Assembly: GCF_003594885.1 (NCBI RefSeq)
Contig: NZ_QZEZ01000007.1
Coordinates: 124,001 to 188,000 of the forward strand
DNA: 64,000 nt
Direction: 5' to 3'
Source of the DNA: Vallicoccus soli
GTDB lineage: Bacteria; Actinomycetota; Actinomycetes; Motilibacterales; Motilibacteraceae
Below the pieces are notes generated by a model. It had not been told where the DNA came from, did not search any database, and saw only the letters and a program-made list of their open reading frames with translations. The position numbers were made by a program, and so were the translations under genes. Shown here in pieces: positions 6,517 to 13,748 of the stretch. Every line of letters starts with the position of its first letter. Within the stretch, counting starts at the first letter, position 1.

Positions 6517-7184
6517 GCTGGCGGCGCCAGCGGGAGGCGTACGCCCAGGGCCGGGCGCTGCGGGTCGTCAACTGGCACGCGACGCCGCGCGCGGTCGAGG
6601 GCGTCCTGCGCGCGGAGCTCGCCGGGCTGCTGCGCGACCACGTGCCCGCGACGCTCGAGGACCTCGACGCCTTCCACGACACCGGGCGCTGGCCCTCGCA
6701 GGCCCCTCGGGTGCTCGTCGCGCTCTACGACGGCTACCGCGACAACGTCGAGGTCGCGGTGCCGGTGTGCGAGGAGCTCGGCGTCACCGCCTGGTTCTTC
6801 CCGCCGACCGGCTTCCTCGACGCCGCGCCCGAGGACCAGCGGGCCTTCGCGGCGGCGTACGACGTCGACCTCGTGCCGGAGCACGAGGGCGCGGACCGGA
6901 TCGCGATGACGTGGGACGAGCTCGCGCGCGTCGGCGAGCGCCACGTCGTCGCCGCGCACACCGCGCGGCACAGCACCGGGCTCGACCTCGTGACGCGCGA
7001 GGACGTCGAGCGCGAGGTGCTCGGCCCCTGCCGGGCCATCGAGCGCGCCGTCGGGCGGGCGCCCGCCGCCTTCGCCTTCTACAGCGGCACGCCGTACGAC
7101 CCGTCCTCGGTCGCCGGCCGGGCCCTGCTGGAGGCGGGCGTGCGCTACGCCGTCACCGCGACGACGTGGGAGCGGATCCGCTAG
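6513..7184 (+). CDS. Polysaccharide deacetylase-like protein with altered catalytic motif
   Basis: A 223-residue NodB-type fold. The second motif is clear: AAHTARHSTGLD matches H-(S/T)-x-x-H-x-x-x, whose two histidines bind the metal. The first motif, normally TFDDG, reads ALYDGYRDN, so the metal-binding second Asp is kept but the first Asp (the catalytic base in the family) is Tyr. The C-terminal block AFAFYSGTPYDPSS resembles the usual F-(R)-x-P-x-G region. There is no signal peptide, so it acts in the cytoplasm. It overlaps the upstream hypothetical gene by four bases and converges on selD with 3' ends overlapping by four bases (6513-7184 against 7181). It may be inactive or act on a different C-N bond. 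Confidence 0.65.
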   Translation: MSWRRQREAYAQGRALRVVNWHATPRAVEGVLRAELAGLLRDHVPATLEDLDAFHDTGRWPSQAPRVLVALYDGYRDNVEVAVPVCEELGVTAWFFPPTGFLDAAPEDQRAFAAAYDVDLVPEHEGADRIAMTWDELARVGERHVVAAHTARHSTGLDLVTREDVEREVLGPCRAIERAVGRAPAAFAFYSGTPYDPSSVAGRALLEAGVRYAVTATTWERIR

Positions 7185-8212
7185 CGCACCACGAGGGTGC
7201 GCCCGTCGCGGGCCGGGACGAGCTCGCCCACGACGGGGTGCCCGGGCACCTCGCCGGCGACGAGCAGGCCGCCCGAGGTCTGCGCGTCGGCGAGCAGCAG
7301 CAGCTCGTCCTCGCCCACGGACGCCTCGAGGTGCGGGCGCACCCAGTCGAGGTTGCGCCGCGTCCCGCCGCTGACGAAGCCGTCGGCGAGCGCGCGCCGC
7401 GCCCCGTCGAGGTAGGGCACCGCGGCCGCGTCGACCACGGCGGTCACGCCGCTGGCCCGGGCCAGCTTGTGCAGGTGGCCGAGCAGGCCGAAGCCGGTGA
7501 CGTCGGTGGCGCAGCGCAGGCCGGCGGCCACGGCGGCCTCCGAAGCGGCGCGGTTGAGGGCCGTCATCGACGCGACGGCCTCGGCGAAGACCTCGCCGGT
7601 GGCCTTGAGCCGGCTGTTGAGCACGCCGACGCCCAGCGGCTTGGTGAGGGTGAGCGGCAGCCCGGCGGCGCCCGCGTCGTTGCGCAGCAGCCGGTCGGGG
7701 TCGGCGACGCCGGTGACGGCCATGCCGTACTTGGGCTCGGGGTCGTCGACGCTGTGCCCCCCGGCGACGTGGCAGCCGGCCTGCGCCGCGACGTCGACCC
7801 CGCCGCGCAGGACCTCCGCGGCGAGCTCCATCGGCAGCACGTCGCGCGGCCAGCCGAGGAGGTTGACCGCGACGACGGGGCGCCCGCCCATGGCGTACAC
7901 GTCCGACAGCGCGTTGGCCGCCGCGATGCGGCCCCAGTCGTAGGCGTCGTCGACGACGGGGGTGAAGAAGTCGGCGGTCGCGACGACCGCGAGGCCGTCG
8001 CGCACGGTGACGACGGCCGCGTCGTCGCCGTCGTCGAGGCCGACGACGAGCGGACCGGCCGGGTCCGCCGGCCCGCGGCCCACGAGGCCGGCGACGACCC
8101 CCTCGAGCTCGCCCGGCGGGATCTTGCAGGCGCACCCCCCGCCGTGCGCGTACGACGTCAGCCGCCGCCCCGCCCCGACCCGCCCGTCCCCGTCCCGCTG
8201 CGCGACCGTCAC
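7181..8212 (-). CDS. selD: Selenide, water dikinase (selenophosphate synthetase)
   Basis: A 343-residue enzyme that makes selenophosphate from selenide and ATP, the selenium donor for Sec-tRNA. The N-terminal active site reads HGGGCACKIPP, matching the GC-x-CK motif with catalytic Cys and Lys; it uses Cys, not selenocysteine, at that spot. Downstream are VVGLDDGDDAAV (metal/ATP Asp residues), TADFFTPVVDDAYDWGRIAAANALSD and VAGGHSVDDPEPKYG, all signature blocks. GTG 8212 is chosen as start because it leaves 47 bp to the divergent nuclease gene; a further GTG/ATG at 8251 would leave eight. selA follows on the same strand beyond the nuclease, so the sel genes are split over both strands here. 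Confidence 0.92.
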   Translation of the reverse strand: MTVAQRDGDGRVGAGRRLTSYAHGGGCACKIPPGELEGVVAGLVGRGPADPAGPLVVGLDDGDDAAVVTVRDGLAVVATADFFTPVVDDAYDWGRIAAANALSDVYAMGGRPVVAVNLLGWPRDVLPMELAAEVLRGGVDVAAQAGCHVAGGHSVDDPEPKYGMAVTGVADPDRLLRNDAGAAGLPLTLTKPLGVGVLNSRLKATGEVFAEAVASMTALNRAASEAAVAAGLRCATDVTGFGLLGHLHKLARASGVTAVVDAAAVPYLDGARRALADGFVSGGTRRNLDWVRPHLEASVGEDELLLLADAQTSGGLLVAGEVPGHPVVGELVPARDGRTLVVR

Positions 8213-8259
8213 CCGGCGAGCCTCGCACCCTGTCGGAGCCGGGTGCTGCACTGGGGTCC

Positions 8260-9150: not shown

Positions 9151-10443
9151 TCAGCGGGGCAGGTCGAGGACCGCGCGGGCGAGCGCGTCGTCGTCGGCCG
9201 GGTCGACGGCGCGCAGGTCGAGCAGGCACTGCCCGCGCTCGGTCCGCCCGACGACGGGCACGGCGCCGGTGCGCAGCGGCCCGGCGCAGGCCTCGGGCAG
9301 GGCGACCGCCCAGCTCGCGAGCTCCACGCCGGGGGCCCCACCGCCGCCGACCCGGGCCGACGAGGGCACCGCCCGGGCGGGGAGCCCGGCGGCGGCCAGG
9401 CGCGCCGCGAGCGCCTCGGCGCGCGGGCGCAGCTCGTCGTCGGCGTGCACCGCGAGGGCGCGGGCCACCGGCGGGGCGGGCCCCCGGAGCGTCGCCTCGA
9501 GCGCGGCGAGCGTCAGCTTGTCGACGCGCACCGCCCGTGCCGCGGGGTGCCGCCGGAGCCGATCGACGAGGCCGGCCTGCCCGAGCAGCAGCCCGCACTG
9601 CGGCCCGCCGAGCAGCTTGTCGCCGCTGGCGGTGACGAGGGCCGCCCCGGCGCGCAGGGCGCTGTCCGCGTCCGGCTCGTCCGGCAGGAGCGGGTGCGGC
9701 GCCAGCAGGCCCGAGCCGATGTCGGCGACGACGGGGACGCCCAGGCCGGTGAGCGCCTCGACGGGCACCTCCGCGGTGAAGCCCTCGACCCGGTAGTTCG
9801 ACGTGTGCACCTTGAGCACGAACGCGGTCGCGGGCCCCACGGCGGCCTCGTAGTCGCGCAGGTGCGTGCGGTTCGTCGTCCCGACCTCGCGCAGCCGGGC
9901 CCCCGCGCTCTCGAGGAGCTCGGGGATGCGGAACCCGTCGCCGATCTCCACCAGCTCGCCGCGGCTGACGACGACCTCGCGGCCGGGGGCGAGCGCCAGC
10001 GCGCAGAGCAGCAGCGCCGCGGCGGTGTTGTTGACCACGTGGACTCCGCCGGCGGCCGGCACGGCGGCGGCCAGCGCGGCGAGCGCGCCCCGGCCGCGCC
10101 GCGCGCGCTGCCCGGTCGCCAGGTCGAACTCGACGTCCGTGGTGCCGGCCGCGTCGGCGACGGCCCGACGGGCCGCGGCCGACAGCGGCGCCCGGCCGAG
10201 GTTGGTGTGCACGACGACGCCGGTGGCGTTGAGGACCGGGCGCAGCCCCGGCGGCGCGGCGAGCGCGGCGAGCGCGGCGTCGGCCACCCGCTCGGGGGCG
10301 ACCTCGCCCGCCCGCGCGCGCTGCTGGGCGTCGAGCACCGCGGCCTTCACGGCCTCCCGCCCGCGCTCGCCGACGTACGGCGCGAGGCGCGGGTCCGCGA
10401 GGAGGGCGTCGGTGCGGGGGATGCGGCGGCGGGGGTCGTCCAC
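9151..10443 (-). CDS. selA: L-seryl-tRNA(Sec) selenium transferase
   Basis: A 430-residue PLP enzyme that converts Ser-tRNA(Sec) to Sec-tRNA(Sec) with selenophosphate. Clear family blocks are PVLNATGVVVHTNLGRAPLS near residue 70, VVNNTAAALLLCALALAPGREVVVSRGELVEIGDGFRIP, VGTTNRTHLRDY and ADIGSGLL. The PLP lysine is in SGDKLLGGPQCG. GTG 10443 preceded by GGGAGG is taken as the start. selD lies downstream on the same strand, separated by the oppositely oriented nuclease. The M42 peptidase gene diverges 158 bp away. The full-length gene with all key residues implies a working selenocysteine pathway. Confidence 0.94.
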   Translation of the reverse strand: MDDPRRRIPRTDALLADPRLAPYVGERGREAVKAAVLDAQQRARAGEVAPERVADAALAALAAPPGLRPVLNATGVVVHTNLGRAPLSAAARRAVADAAGTTDVEFDLATGQRARRGRGALAALAAAVPAAGGVHVVNNTAAALLLCALALAPGREVVVSRGELVEIGDGFRIPELLESAGARLREVGTTNRTHLRDYEAAVGPATAFVLKVHTSNYRVEGFTAEVPVEALTGLGVPVVADIGSGLLAPHPLLPDEPDADSALRAGAALVTASGDKLLGGPQCGLLLGQAGLVDRLRRHPAARAVRVDKLTLAALEATLRGPAPPVARALAVHADDELRPRAEALAARLAAAGLPARAVPSSARVGGGGAPGVELASWAVALPEACAGPLRTGAVPVVGRTERGQCLLDLRAVDPADDDALARAVLDLPR

Positions 10444-10601
10444 GTGCGCCTCCCGCCCTCGTCGTCCGCCCGGTGCTGCCGGGGCCAGCACAGCACACGC
10501 CCGCGCCCGGGGCGCGGCGGGCCACCGGCCGCATGGGCGGCGTGGGCCGGGGCAGGCGGGGGCGGGCGGCGCGCGGGCGCCGCGCGACGGGGAGGCGACC
10601 G

Positions 10602-11678
10602 GTGGACGAGCAGGACCGCGCAGCGCTGCAGGAGCTGCTCCGTGCGTACGGGCCCGTCGGGCAGGAGGACGAGGTCCGCGAGGTCGCCCGGCGCCGGCTC
10701 GAGCCGTCCGTCGACCGCTGCTGGCAGGACCCCGCGGGCAACGTCGTGGGCCTCGTCCGCGGGACGGACCCTGACGCCCCGGCGGTGCGCGTCACCGCGC
10801 ACCTCGACGAGCTGTCGATGCTCGTCAAGCGGGTCGAGCCGGACGGCAGCCTGCACGTCACCCCGCTCGGCACGATGTACCCGGGCAACTTCGGGCTCGG
10901 CCCCGTCGCGGTGCTCGGCGACGGTCGGCACCTGCCCGGTGTGCTCGCGCTCGGCTCCGAGCACACCACGCAGGAGACGCCACGGGTGTGGCAGACCAAG
11001 CCCGACGGGGGCGACCAGGCGCTGGACTGGACGCACGTCAGCGTCTTCACCGGCCGCTCGCCCGCGGACCTGGCGGACGCCGGCGTGGGCCCGGGGACGC
11101 GGGTGTGCGTGGACCGCAGCAAGCGCGGCCTCTTCGACGTCGGGGGCTTCGTCGGGTCGTACTTCCTCGACGACCGGGCCGCCGTCGCCGCCCTGCTCCG
11201 GGCCGCCCGCGAGCTCCGCGGCGGCACCCGGCCCCGCGCCGACACGTACCTGGTGCTCAGCGTCGCCGAGGAGATCGGCGGCGTCGGGGCCTCGTACGCC
11301 TGCCGCACCCTCCCCGGCGACCTCGTCGTCGCGCTCGAGGTCGGCCCCGCCGAGGCGGAGTACGGGACGAGCGTCCACGGCGGTCCCGTCGTGGGCTACA
11401 GCGACGCGGCGGGCGTGTACGACAAGCGCGTCGCGGACCGGCTCTGCGCCGCGGCCCGGGCCCGCGGCGTCGTCGCGCAGCCCGCCGTCCTCGGCGCCTT
11501 CGAGTCCGACGCGTCGCACGCCACGGCGGCCGGGCTCTCCGCGCGCGCCGGGCTGCTGTGCCTGCCGACCCTGAGCACCCACGGGTACGAGGTCATGCCC
11601 GCCACCGCCGTCACGGACGTCGCCGCGGTGCTCGTGGAGTTCCTGCGGCAGCCGGCGGAGCGCGAGGGGCCGGTCTGA
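10602..11678 (+). CDS. M42-family glutamyl aminopeptidase/endoglucanase-like metallopeptidase
   Basis: A 358-residue metallopeptidase of the M42 (tetrahedral aminopeptidase/FrvX) type. Visible metal and catalytic sites are TAHLDELSMLV (first His ligand), YFLDDRAAVAALL (bridging Asp), SVAEEIGGVGA (Glu base plus Glu ligand), ALEVGPAE (acidic ligand) and LSTHGYE (last His ligand). GTG 10602 has GGGGAGG seven bases upstream. The enzyme would remove N-terminal residues from cytoplasmic peptides. It is placed between selA and tRNA-Sec but has no known role in selenocysteine synthesis; the link may be positional only. The stop is followed by about 195 bp of non-coding sequence leading to tRNA-Sec. 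Confidence 0.85.
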   Translation: MDEQDRAALQELLRAYGPVGQEDEVREVARRRLEPSVDRCWQDPAGNVVGLVRGTDPDAPAVRVTAHLDELSMLVKRVEPDGSLHVTPLGTMYPGNFGLGPVAVLGDGRHLPGVLALGSEHTTQETPRVWQTKPDGGDQALDWTHVSVFTGRSPADLADAGVGPGTRVCVDRSKRGLFDVGGFVGSYFLDDRAAVAALLRAARELRGGTRPRADTYLVLSVAEEIGGVGASYACRTLPGDLVVALEVGPAEAEYGTSVHGGPVVGYSDAAGVYDKRVADRLCAAARARGVVAQPAVLGAFESDASHATAAGLSARAGLLCLPTLSTHGYEVMPATAVTDVAAVLVEFLRQPAEREGPV

Positions 11679-11689
11679 CCCCACCCTGC

Positions 11690-11822
11690 CGTGATCGTGC
11701 GGGGTGGTGCGGCGACCCCTCCCTGCCGCGGTCATGCCCAGCCGCGGGGGCGCTGCCCGTCCCCGGCCTGCCGTCCGCGCAGCGGGAGGAGCGCCATCCC
11801 CGCATGATCGCGGCGGGGAGGG
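11690..11822. repeat. Family B repeat remnants before tRNA-Sec
   Basis: This intergenic stretch holds degenerate copies (GTGATCGTGCGGGG near 11692, GCGGTCATGCCC near 11730) and one good copy. The 20 bp CGCCATCCCCGCATGATCGC at 11792-11811 is identical to the reverse complement of 23992-24011, more than 12 kb away. Such identity between two non-coding sites shows a dispersed repeat, not chance. It lies downstream of the M42 peptidase stop and so could end transcription before the tRNA-Sec promoter. Confidence 0.65.
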
Positions 11823-11855
11823 TGGCCCCGGGGGCGCGCTGCCCGGGGGCCGGGG

Positions 11856-11861
11856 TAGCGT
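11856..11861 (+). promoter_or_regulatory. Possible -10 element of the tRNA-Sec/selB promoter
   Basis: TAGCGT fits the actinobacterial TANNNT consensus and ends 12 bases before the first base of tRNA-Sec, a suitable distance for a transcript starting just upstream of the mature end. No convincing -35 box is visible. It is a weak, single-motif call. Confidence 0.3.
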
Positions 11862-11873
11862 CGGCGGCTGCGG

Positions 11874-11968
11874 GGAGGCGTTCCCAGGCTGGTGCCTGGC
11901 GCGGTCTTCAACACCGTTGTGGCCCGGGACCCGGGTCAGGCGGGTTCGATTCCCGTCCGCCTCCGCCA
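11874..11968 (+). tRNA. selC: tRNA-Sec (anticodon UCA)
   Basis: The 95-nt gene folds as a bacterial selenocysteine tRNA. The acceptor is GGAGGCGT paired with CCGCCTCC (seven pairs plus one T-C mismatch at the eighth position). The long D stem is CCAGGC/GCCTGG with a TGGT loop. The anticodon arm has loop CTTCAAC, with TCA at 11908-11910. A long variable arm (about seven pairs) and the T arm GCGGG-TTCGATT-CCCGT follow. Discriminator G and an encoded CCA end the gene at 11968. The UCA anticodon reads UGA. selB starts 34 bp downstream, and the two are probably co-transcribed. Confidence 0.95.
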
Positions 11969-12002
11969 CCCCGCCCGCGCAGCACGCCCGCAGGAGGCCC
12001 CG

Positions 12003-13748
12003 ATCCACGTCGTCGCGACCGCGGGGCACGTCGACCACGGCAAGTCCACGCTCGTCCGCGCGCTGACCGGCATGGAGCCGGACCGCTTCGAGGAGGAGCG
12101 CCGGCGCGGGATGACCATCGAGCTGGGGTACGCCTGGACGGACCTGCCCGGCGGCGAGCGGCTCGCGCTCGTCGACGTCCCCGGGCACGAGCGGTTCGTC
12201 CCGACGATGCTCGCCGGGGTCGGCCCGGTGCCGGCGGTGCTGCTCGTCGTGGCCGCCGACGGCGGCTGGATGCCGCAGTCGACCGAGCACCTCGAGGCCC
12301 TCGACGCGCTCGGCGTGCGCCACGGCGTCCTCGCCGTCACGCGCTGCGACCTGGCCGACCCCGGACCGGCCACGGCCGAGGCCCGCGAGCGCCTGCGCGG
12401 CACCGGGCTGGAGGGCGTCGAGGCGGTCGCGGTGAGCGGCGCGACCGGGGCCGGGCTGGACGACCTGCGCGCCGCCCTGGGCCGCCTGCTCGCGTCGCTG
12501 CCCGCGCCCGACCGCGCCGCTCCCGTCCGGCTGTGGGTCGACCGCTCCTTCTCCGTCCGCGGCAGCGGCACCGTGGTCACCGGGACGCTGCCCGCCGGCT
12601 CCGTCGGCGCGGGCGACGAGCTCCGGCTGGGCGAGCGCACCGTGCGGGTCCGCGGCGTGCAGGCCCTCGGCGCGCCGGCCGAGCGCGTCGGCGCCGTCGC
12701 CCGGGTCGCGCTCAACCTGCGGGGCGTCGAGCGCGAGGAGGTCGGCCGCGGCGACGCGCTGACGACCCCGGGGGCGTACCTCACCACCGACGTGGTCGAC
12801 GTCCGCGTCCACGCCGACGCGGCGGGGCTGCCCGAGCGCCTCGTGCTGCACGTCGGCTCGGCGGCCCTCGCGGTGCGGGTGCGCCCGCTCGGCGCGGCCG
12901 CGGCCCGCCTCGCGCTGCCGTCGCCGCTGCCGCTGCGCGTGGGCGACCGGATGCTGCTGCGCGACCCGGGGCGGCACCGGGTGGCGGCGGGGGTGGACGT
13001 GCTGGACGTACGGCCCCCGCGCCTCGCCCGCCGCGGCGCCGCCGCCCGCCGCGCCGAGGTGCTGGCCGATCTGGGGCCGCGCCCGGACGTGGCGTCCGAG
13101 CTGCGCCGCCGGGGCCTGGCCCGCGCCGCGGACCTGCGGGCCATGGGCGTCGAGGTCGGCGGGACGCCGGTGGCCGGGGACTGGCTGGCCGACCCGGCGC
13201 ACTGGGCGCGGCTGCGCGAGCGGCTCGGCGCGCTCGTCGACGAGCACGCCCGGGAGCACCCGCTGCAGCCGGCGGTGCCCGTCGACGACCTGCGCCGGCG
13301 GCTCGGCCTGCCCGACCGGTCGCTCGTCGCGGCGCTCGTCGGGCCGCCGTACGCGCTGCGCGAGGGCCGGGTCGGGCGGCCCGCCGCCGGCCCCGCGCTG
13401 CCCCCGCCGGTGCAGCGCGCGGTCGACGCCGTCCGCGCCGACCTCGCGGGCGCCCCCTTCGCGGCGCCCGACGCGGACCGGCTGGCCGCACTCGGCCTCG
13501 GCCCGCGCGAGCTGGCCGCCGCCGTGCGCGCGGGCGCGCTGCTCAAGGTCGCCGAGGGCGTGGTGCTGGCGCCCGACGCGCTCGACCGGGCCGGCGCGGT
13601 GCTGGCGGGCGTCGAGCAGCCGTTCACGCTGTCGCAGGCCCGCCAGGCGCTCGGCACGAGCCGACGGGTCGCCGTACCCCTGCTGGAGCTCCTCGACCGC
13701 CGCGGCACGACGCGGCGGCTGCCGGACGACCGGCGCACCGTGCGCTGA
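12003..13748 (+). CDS. selB: Selenocysteine-specific elongation factor, apparent AUC start
   Basis: A 581-residue GTPase that brings Sec-tRNA to UGA codons next to a SECIS hairpin. The G domain shows GHVDHGKSTLVRALTG (P loop), RGMTIELGYA (switch I), DVPGHERF (switch II) and VTRCDLAD (NKxD variant). EF-Tu-like domains 2-3 follow, then a long winged-helix C-terminal part for mRNA binding. Homologues begin M-H-V-I/V-A-T-A-G-H-V-D-H-G, and here that first position is an ATC codon at 12003. AGGAGG sits at 11992-11997, five bases upstream. There is no in-frame ATG, GTG or TTG between the tRNA-Sec 3' end and the P loop. The only upstream in-frame start, a GTG at 11892, lies inside the tRNA gene. Confidence 0.9.
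   Translation: MHVVATAGHVDHGKSTLVRALTGMEPDRFEEERRRGMTIELGYAWTDLPGGERLALVDVPGHERFVPTMLAGVGPVPAVLLVVAADGGWMPQSTEHLEALDALGVRHGVLAVTRCDLADPGPATAEARERLRGTGLEGVEAVAVSGATGAGLDDLRAALGRLLASLPAPDRAAPVRLWVDRSFSVRGSGTVVTGTLPAGSVGAGDELRLGERTVRVRGVQALGAPAERVGAVARVALNLRGVEREEVGRGDALTTPGAYLTTDVVDVRVHADAAGLPERLVLHVGSAALAVRVRPLGAAAARLALPSPLPLRVGDRMLLRDPGRHRVAAGVDVLDVRPPRLARRGAAARRAEVLADLGPRPDVASELRRRGLARAADLRAMGVEVGGTPVAGDWLADPAHWARLRERLGALVDEHAREHPLQPAVPVDDLRRRLGLPDRSLVAALVGPPYALREGRVGRPAAGPALPPPVQRAVDAVRADLAGAPFAAPDADRLAALGLGPRELAAAVRAGALLKVAEGVVLAPDALDRAGAVLAGVEQPFTLSQARQALGTSRRVAVPLLELLDRRGTTRRLPDDRRTVR

Follow-up and report, generated by a model that had tools for sequence, protein, structure and literature searches.

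The selB gene of Vallicoccus soli is probably translated from an AUC codon. We analysed a stretch of 64,000 nucleotides (the window; positions 124001–188000 of contig C7 in a draft genome of 4.04 Mb and 20 contigs) in which ATC occupies the position of SelB residue 1, as aligned with relatives, and is preceded by a Shine-Dalgarno sequence with a spacer of CCCCG. An AUC start is the best reading of this locus because no other start would yield an ordinary SelB and because AUC is also the apparent infC start codon of the clade. Coordinates of the features are given in the table.

Features of the selenocysteine locus in the window
Feature	Position in window	Strand	Evidence and remarks
selD	7181–8251	−	TIGR00476, 384 bits
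selA	9151–10491	−	TIGR00474, 417 bits; opposite strand, unlike family relatives
tRNA-Sec, anticodon TCA	11874–11968	+	ARAGORN; Rfam RF01852, 74.9 bits; CCA encoded at 11966–11968
34-nt leader, tRNA-Sec to selB	11969–12002	+	Canonical start codons absent from all frames
Shine-Dalgarno sequence AGGAGG	11992–11997	+	Spacer of 5 nt; −10.3 kcal/mol against the 16S tail
ATC, proposed selB start codon	12003–12005	+	Homologous to the GTG/ATG starts of relatives
selB frame, 581 codons plus stop	12003–13748	+	TIGR00475, SelB-wing_3, GTP_EFTU

The frame opened by this codon encodes a SelB protein. It scored 286 bits against TIGR00475 (cut-off 242.25), contains the SECIS-reading C-terminal winged helix at residues 538–578 (PF09107 SelB-wing_3, 59.3 bits), has no internal stop and is 58–71% identical to SelB of four family relatives. 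The genome also encodes tRNA-Sec, SelA and SelD, the latter two exceeding their family cut-offs, and a selenoprotein substrate, a formate dehydrogenase alpha frame with one in-frame TGA at G000:C7:120270, approximately 3.7 kb before the window. This TGA lies in the context NQARI-U-HSATVPGLGASFGRGG; directly behind it is a strong hairpin (GGTCCCC-GGTCT-GGGGGCC) of the kind that a bacterial SECIS should form. The neighbours of the formate dehydrogenase (L089, G000:C7:117001-125000) run toward the window start. Judged by these genes, the selenocysteine (Sec) system is intact and selB is needed. SelB dN/dS was 0.38, 0.36 and 0.56 against G004, G003 and G001, respectively, and 0.55 (G003 vs G001) and 0.51 (G004 vs G001) between relatives, which indicates a protein under constraint, with the reservation that high G+C saturates dN/dS and that a very recent loss is invisible to it. 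We rejected a selB pseudogene, as dN/dS is no higher than among relatives.

The preliminary description had placed an ATC exactly at the SelB start and AGGAGG five bases upstream of it, and both placements were borne out. The + strand of the window contains 33 copies of AGGAGG, so that one is expected by chance 4–9 nt from any given site in about 0.3% of cases. A scripted codon listing of positions 11969–12035 returned no ATG, GTG, TTG, CTG, ATT or ATA in any frame and a single ATC, in the selB frame; this stretch thus holds no hidden start in another frame that a frameshift could link to selB. The claim that no in-frame ATG, GTG or TTG lies between the end of tRNA-Sec and the P loop also held. 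Downstream, the first canonical codon is an ATG at 12072, 23 codons in and past GHVDHGKS, and initiation there would delete the P loop. The site therefore combines two marks of an AUH start, the lack of a canonical in-frame start able to yield the conserved protein and a strong, properly spaced Shine-Dalgarno sequence. A scan of positions 11600–12300 for promoter and terminator consensus sequences found none, and none were expected.

Upstream of ATC, the selB frame is open as far as a TAG at 11856 and contains GTG codons at 11892 and 11919, both within the tRNA-Sec gene; a single such GTG had been described earlier, correctly located but undercounted. Initiation at either GTG would give SelB a tRNA-encoded N-terminal extension and make tRNA maturation and SelB synthesis mutually exclusive. 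The frame is indeed open from 11859 through tRNA-Sec, and for Alphaproteobacteria a tRNA-Sec nested in the selB 3' end has been predicted (PMC8124441), but an open frame of such length is unremarkable at this G+C, neither GTG has a Shine-Dalgarno sequence at the usual distance, a message of this kind would be severed by tRNA processing, relatives have their start codons at the ATC position and a perfect AGGAGG precedes ATC instead. We consider a GTG start within the tRNA gene highly improbable.

Comparison with relatives set the proposed AUC start apart from the other selB genes sampled. Our sample of the family, which here equals the order, consists of five genomes, all with SelB. The codon homologous to ATC is GTG in G001, G003 and G004 and ATG in G002, where GATGCACGTCGTCGCGACCGCG stands at the site of GATCCACGTCGTCGCGACCGCG in V. 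soli, a single base change between GATG and GATC. Sixty-eight sources were given for a broader comparison of SelB starts, five of which lacked the P-loop motif; the 63 loci with the motif, our own included, have ATG (n = 34), GTG (n = 25) or ATC (n = 1, our own) at this position, and the other three have a different codon there but ATG or GTG one to six codons upstream. An exact pattern run on 393 genomes of the class found ATH at the selB start in one (our own) and DTG in 86, with every start among the DTG matches listed being ATG or GTG, and a looser pattern run on 296 genomes of the phylum returned our own and one further match, these counts being pattern matches and not all SelBs, since SelBs whose N-termini differ escape the patterns. 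The further match (G470) was rejected as a second ATC-start selB, because its ATC is preceded by TAG-ATG-ACC-GAG, with ATG three codons upstream. One genome of the class, G274, gave two matches to the selB start pattern, one ATG and one GTG (C1:117171, C100:11821), and probably has two selB copies.

As far as sampled, the selB ATC is private to this genome. Conservation in relatives, which supports an AUH start and is not strictly required for one, was absent: the ATC or ATT in close relatives that the preliminary description had named as support was found neither by alignment in the four family relatives (GTG or ATG in 4/4) nor by pattern in the other class genomes (0/392). Within the family of five, no selB Shine-Dalgarno sequence is stronger than that of V. 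soli, but it ranks 22nd of the 63 SelB loci, by which rank we rejected the idea that an extra-strong Shine-Dalgarno sequence compensates for ATC.

Because ATC is conserved in no relative, a sequencing or assembly error has to be weighed, in which case selB would in truth have an ordinary start at ATG (or GTG); the earlier caveat that such an error would need to hit this very codon is one we share. All family relatives have GTG or ATG at the position, G002 has GATGCACGTCGTCGCGACCGCG in place of GATCCACGTCGTCGCGACCGCG, the assembly is a draft and the genus is sampled by this genome alone. Yet the error must strike one particular base in a frame that is otherwise intact, and by usual experience a miscalled consensus at any particular codon is rarer still than switches to AUH starts. 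Among close relatives, such switches are very rare, with 1/61,358 for AUG and 1/5,080 for GUG, both to AUU, and AUC does not occur in the accessible text of that study (PMC5622118). Four mycobacteria have 4–43 annotated AUH starts per genome (26/6466, 14/4872, 4/3844 and 43/2263 among genes not in the highly expressed set, the annotation being itself error-prone; PMC11052298 Table 3), which is above the number of start-codon base errors to be expected in a good draft. Overall, an error at this codon seems unlikely to us.

The infC gene provided a control. Its start is ATC in this genome (L102) and in all four family relatives, within ATC-AGC-ACN-GAG-CCC-CGC-ATC-AAC. Across the class, the infC start is ATH in 82 of 118 genomes, invariably ATC, and DTG in none; the other 36 match neither infC start pattern. 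We read 25 infC leaders, five from the family and 20 chosen among the remaining 77 matches, and every one of them has a Shine-Dalgarno sequence right before ATC. Eight leaders contain an in-frame stop, as near as four codons, and no canonical start before ATC, while 17 have an in-frame ATG, GTG or TTG somewhere upstream, five of them without a stop in the stretch read. The duplex energy of infC (median −10.2 kcal/mol) compares with −10.3 kcal/mol for selB, and some infC leaders (AGGAGGCCCC-ATC) are one base away from the selB leader (AGGAGGCCCCG-ATC). Since a Shine-Dalgarno sequence was present in 25/25 leaders and 8/25 had a stop and no other start, AUC initiation is very probably ordinary on infC in this clade. 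A start-codon model that allows NTG only would misplace the infC start in the class. That infC starts at ATC in the same genome, its relatives and its class makes the selB ATC credible. The earlier proposal that selB starts at AUC is thereby strengthened by the infC parallel and by the lack of an alternative start, and weakened by the codon not being conserved in relatives.

The infC start also bears on the possibility that ATC is real and marks a recent start loss, with selB being lost or nearly silent in this strain. The change is private to this genome, and loss of selenocysteine use is frequent in bacteria. However, selA, selD and tRNA-Sec are intact, as is the formate dehydrogenase frame with its UGA and hairpin, and selB runs through 581 codons without a stop at a dN/dS no higher than between relatives. 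Because infC of this genome seems to be initiated at AUC, the mutation would lower and not abolish selB expression. We judge a start loss improbable.

The gene order around selB is also peculiar to this genome. G001 and G002 have the order tRNA-Sec, selA, selB, in which selB adjoins the end of selA, and G003 and G004 have tRNA-Sec 2.5 kb before selB with selA in between. In V. soli, selA is on the other strand and selB follows 34 nt behind tRNA-Sec, whereas at none of 67 loci (L010–L076) did ARAGORN call a tRNA-Sec in the 300 nt preceding selB. A peptidase-like frame (approximately 10602–11678, labelled by eye) lies between the inverted selA and tRNA-Sec. At three Geodermatophilus loci (L047, L049, L051), ARAGORN reported a 'tRNA-Pyl' with a CTA anticodon at the site upstream of selB that tRNA-Sec occupies elsewhere; we take it to be probably a tRNA-Sec reading UAG, which is a known variant. 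The changed order relative to the family points to a rearrangement that uncoupled selB from selA and gave selB its own leader, and we infer that ATC arose together with this rearrangement.

Under the preferred reading, initiation at AUC, selB translation is probably low and sensitive to IF3, as far as its start site indicates. AGGAGG five bases upstream would hold the 30S subunit at the codon, and fMet-tRNA would pair with AU and be mismatched at the third base; this mismatch predicts weak initiation that should depend on the IF3 level as for infC. Poor start codons are rejected by IF3, whose own gene in E. coli begins with AUU (PMC1780047). Codons that pair weakly at the third base are excluded by IF3 in vitro, with AUC and the normal CAU anticodon not among the cases in the accessible part of that work (PMC10158994). 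As a start codon in E. coli, AUC is described as weak and among the seven strongest codons, at >100-fold over the control (PMC12350097, citing Hecht 2017), in poor medium AUU and AUA sites of S. aureus are reported to reach about 10% of the AUG level (PMC13009471), and a lacZ fusion in B. subtilis with an AUC start mutation reportedly kept expression at a much reduced level (PMC10303841). By analogy with such genes, selB expression would be low or controlled. The likely use of a weak AUC start would be to limit the amount of SelB, since an excess of it has been proposed to sequester Sec-tRNA (PMC8124441).

The order of events may have been that selB was first separated from selA and placed downstream of tRNA-Sec, with which it is probably co-transcribed, and that the weak start arose afterwards. 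We tentatively extend this to a control of the infC type, with AUC behind AGGAGG, that the class would otherwise keep for infC, for which the odds are rather against: the IF3 level would set SelB supply, this control would have come with the move behind tRNA-Sec, and the weak start would offset the tRNA promoter and keep SelB and Sec-tRNA balanced. The comparison with IF3 control draws on the likeness of the selB and infC start sites at the sequence level.

Several known systems resemble the proposed selB start. Like selB, infC (AUU in E. coli, AUA in S. aureus, ATC in Actinomycetes) is a translation-factor gene in which a strong Shine-Dalgarno sequence precedes a weak AUH codon; its codon is conserved, whereas the selB ATC is private. 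Because infC encodes the factor that inspects the codon, its loop is autoregulation, and an effect of IF3 on selB would be cross-control. Non-canonical starts limit expression, as proposed for selB, in pcnB of E. coli (AUU) and in cvfC1 (AUU), ccpN and citZ (both AUA) of S. aureus; these codons are AUU or AUA and not AUC and were established experimentally, while the selB start is proposed from sequence, and the cvfC1 and ccpN starts are conserved, unlike the selB ATC. Extended Shine-Dalgarno motifs are described for infC, cvfC1 and ccpN of S. aureus (PMC13009471). The lepA genes of Borrelia burgdorferi and Bacillus licheniformis, with an inferred AUU start, parallel selB in encoding a translational GTPase whose full length needs an AUH codon (PMC1780047); subfamily and codon differ, and both starts were deduced from sequence. 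In Alphaproteobacteria, the nested tRNA-Sec is read together with selB and has been proposed to hold SelB low (PMC8124441), but there it lies inside the selB 3' end, whereas here it lies 34 nt upstream and the conserved frame is not overlapped. A shallow survey, in which subscription literature was thinly covered, returned no report of an AUC-start selB and none naming AUC as the infC start of Actinomycetes; an arXiv paper on bacterial genes preferring non-AUG starts is cited in PMC9845219.

Few natural AUC starts for which a reason is evident are on record, and genes that have them are dropped or mis-started by gene finders. If used, the selB AUC would be an AUH start that limits a translation factor, a known principle in a new gene, and V. 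soli, with its AUC infC, would have a second translation-factor gene starting with AUC. The case offers a simple test of how SelB stays low when read with tRNA-Sec. It would be of real interest if confirmed, and selenocysteine supply would then be linked to the start-codon proofreading of IF3.
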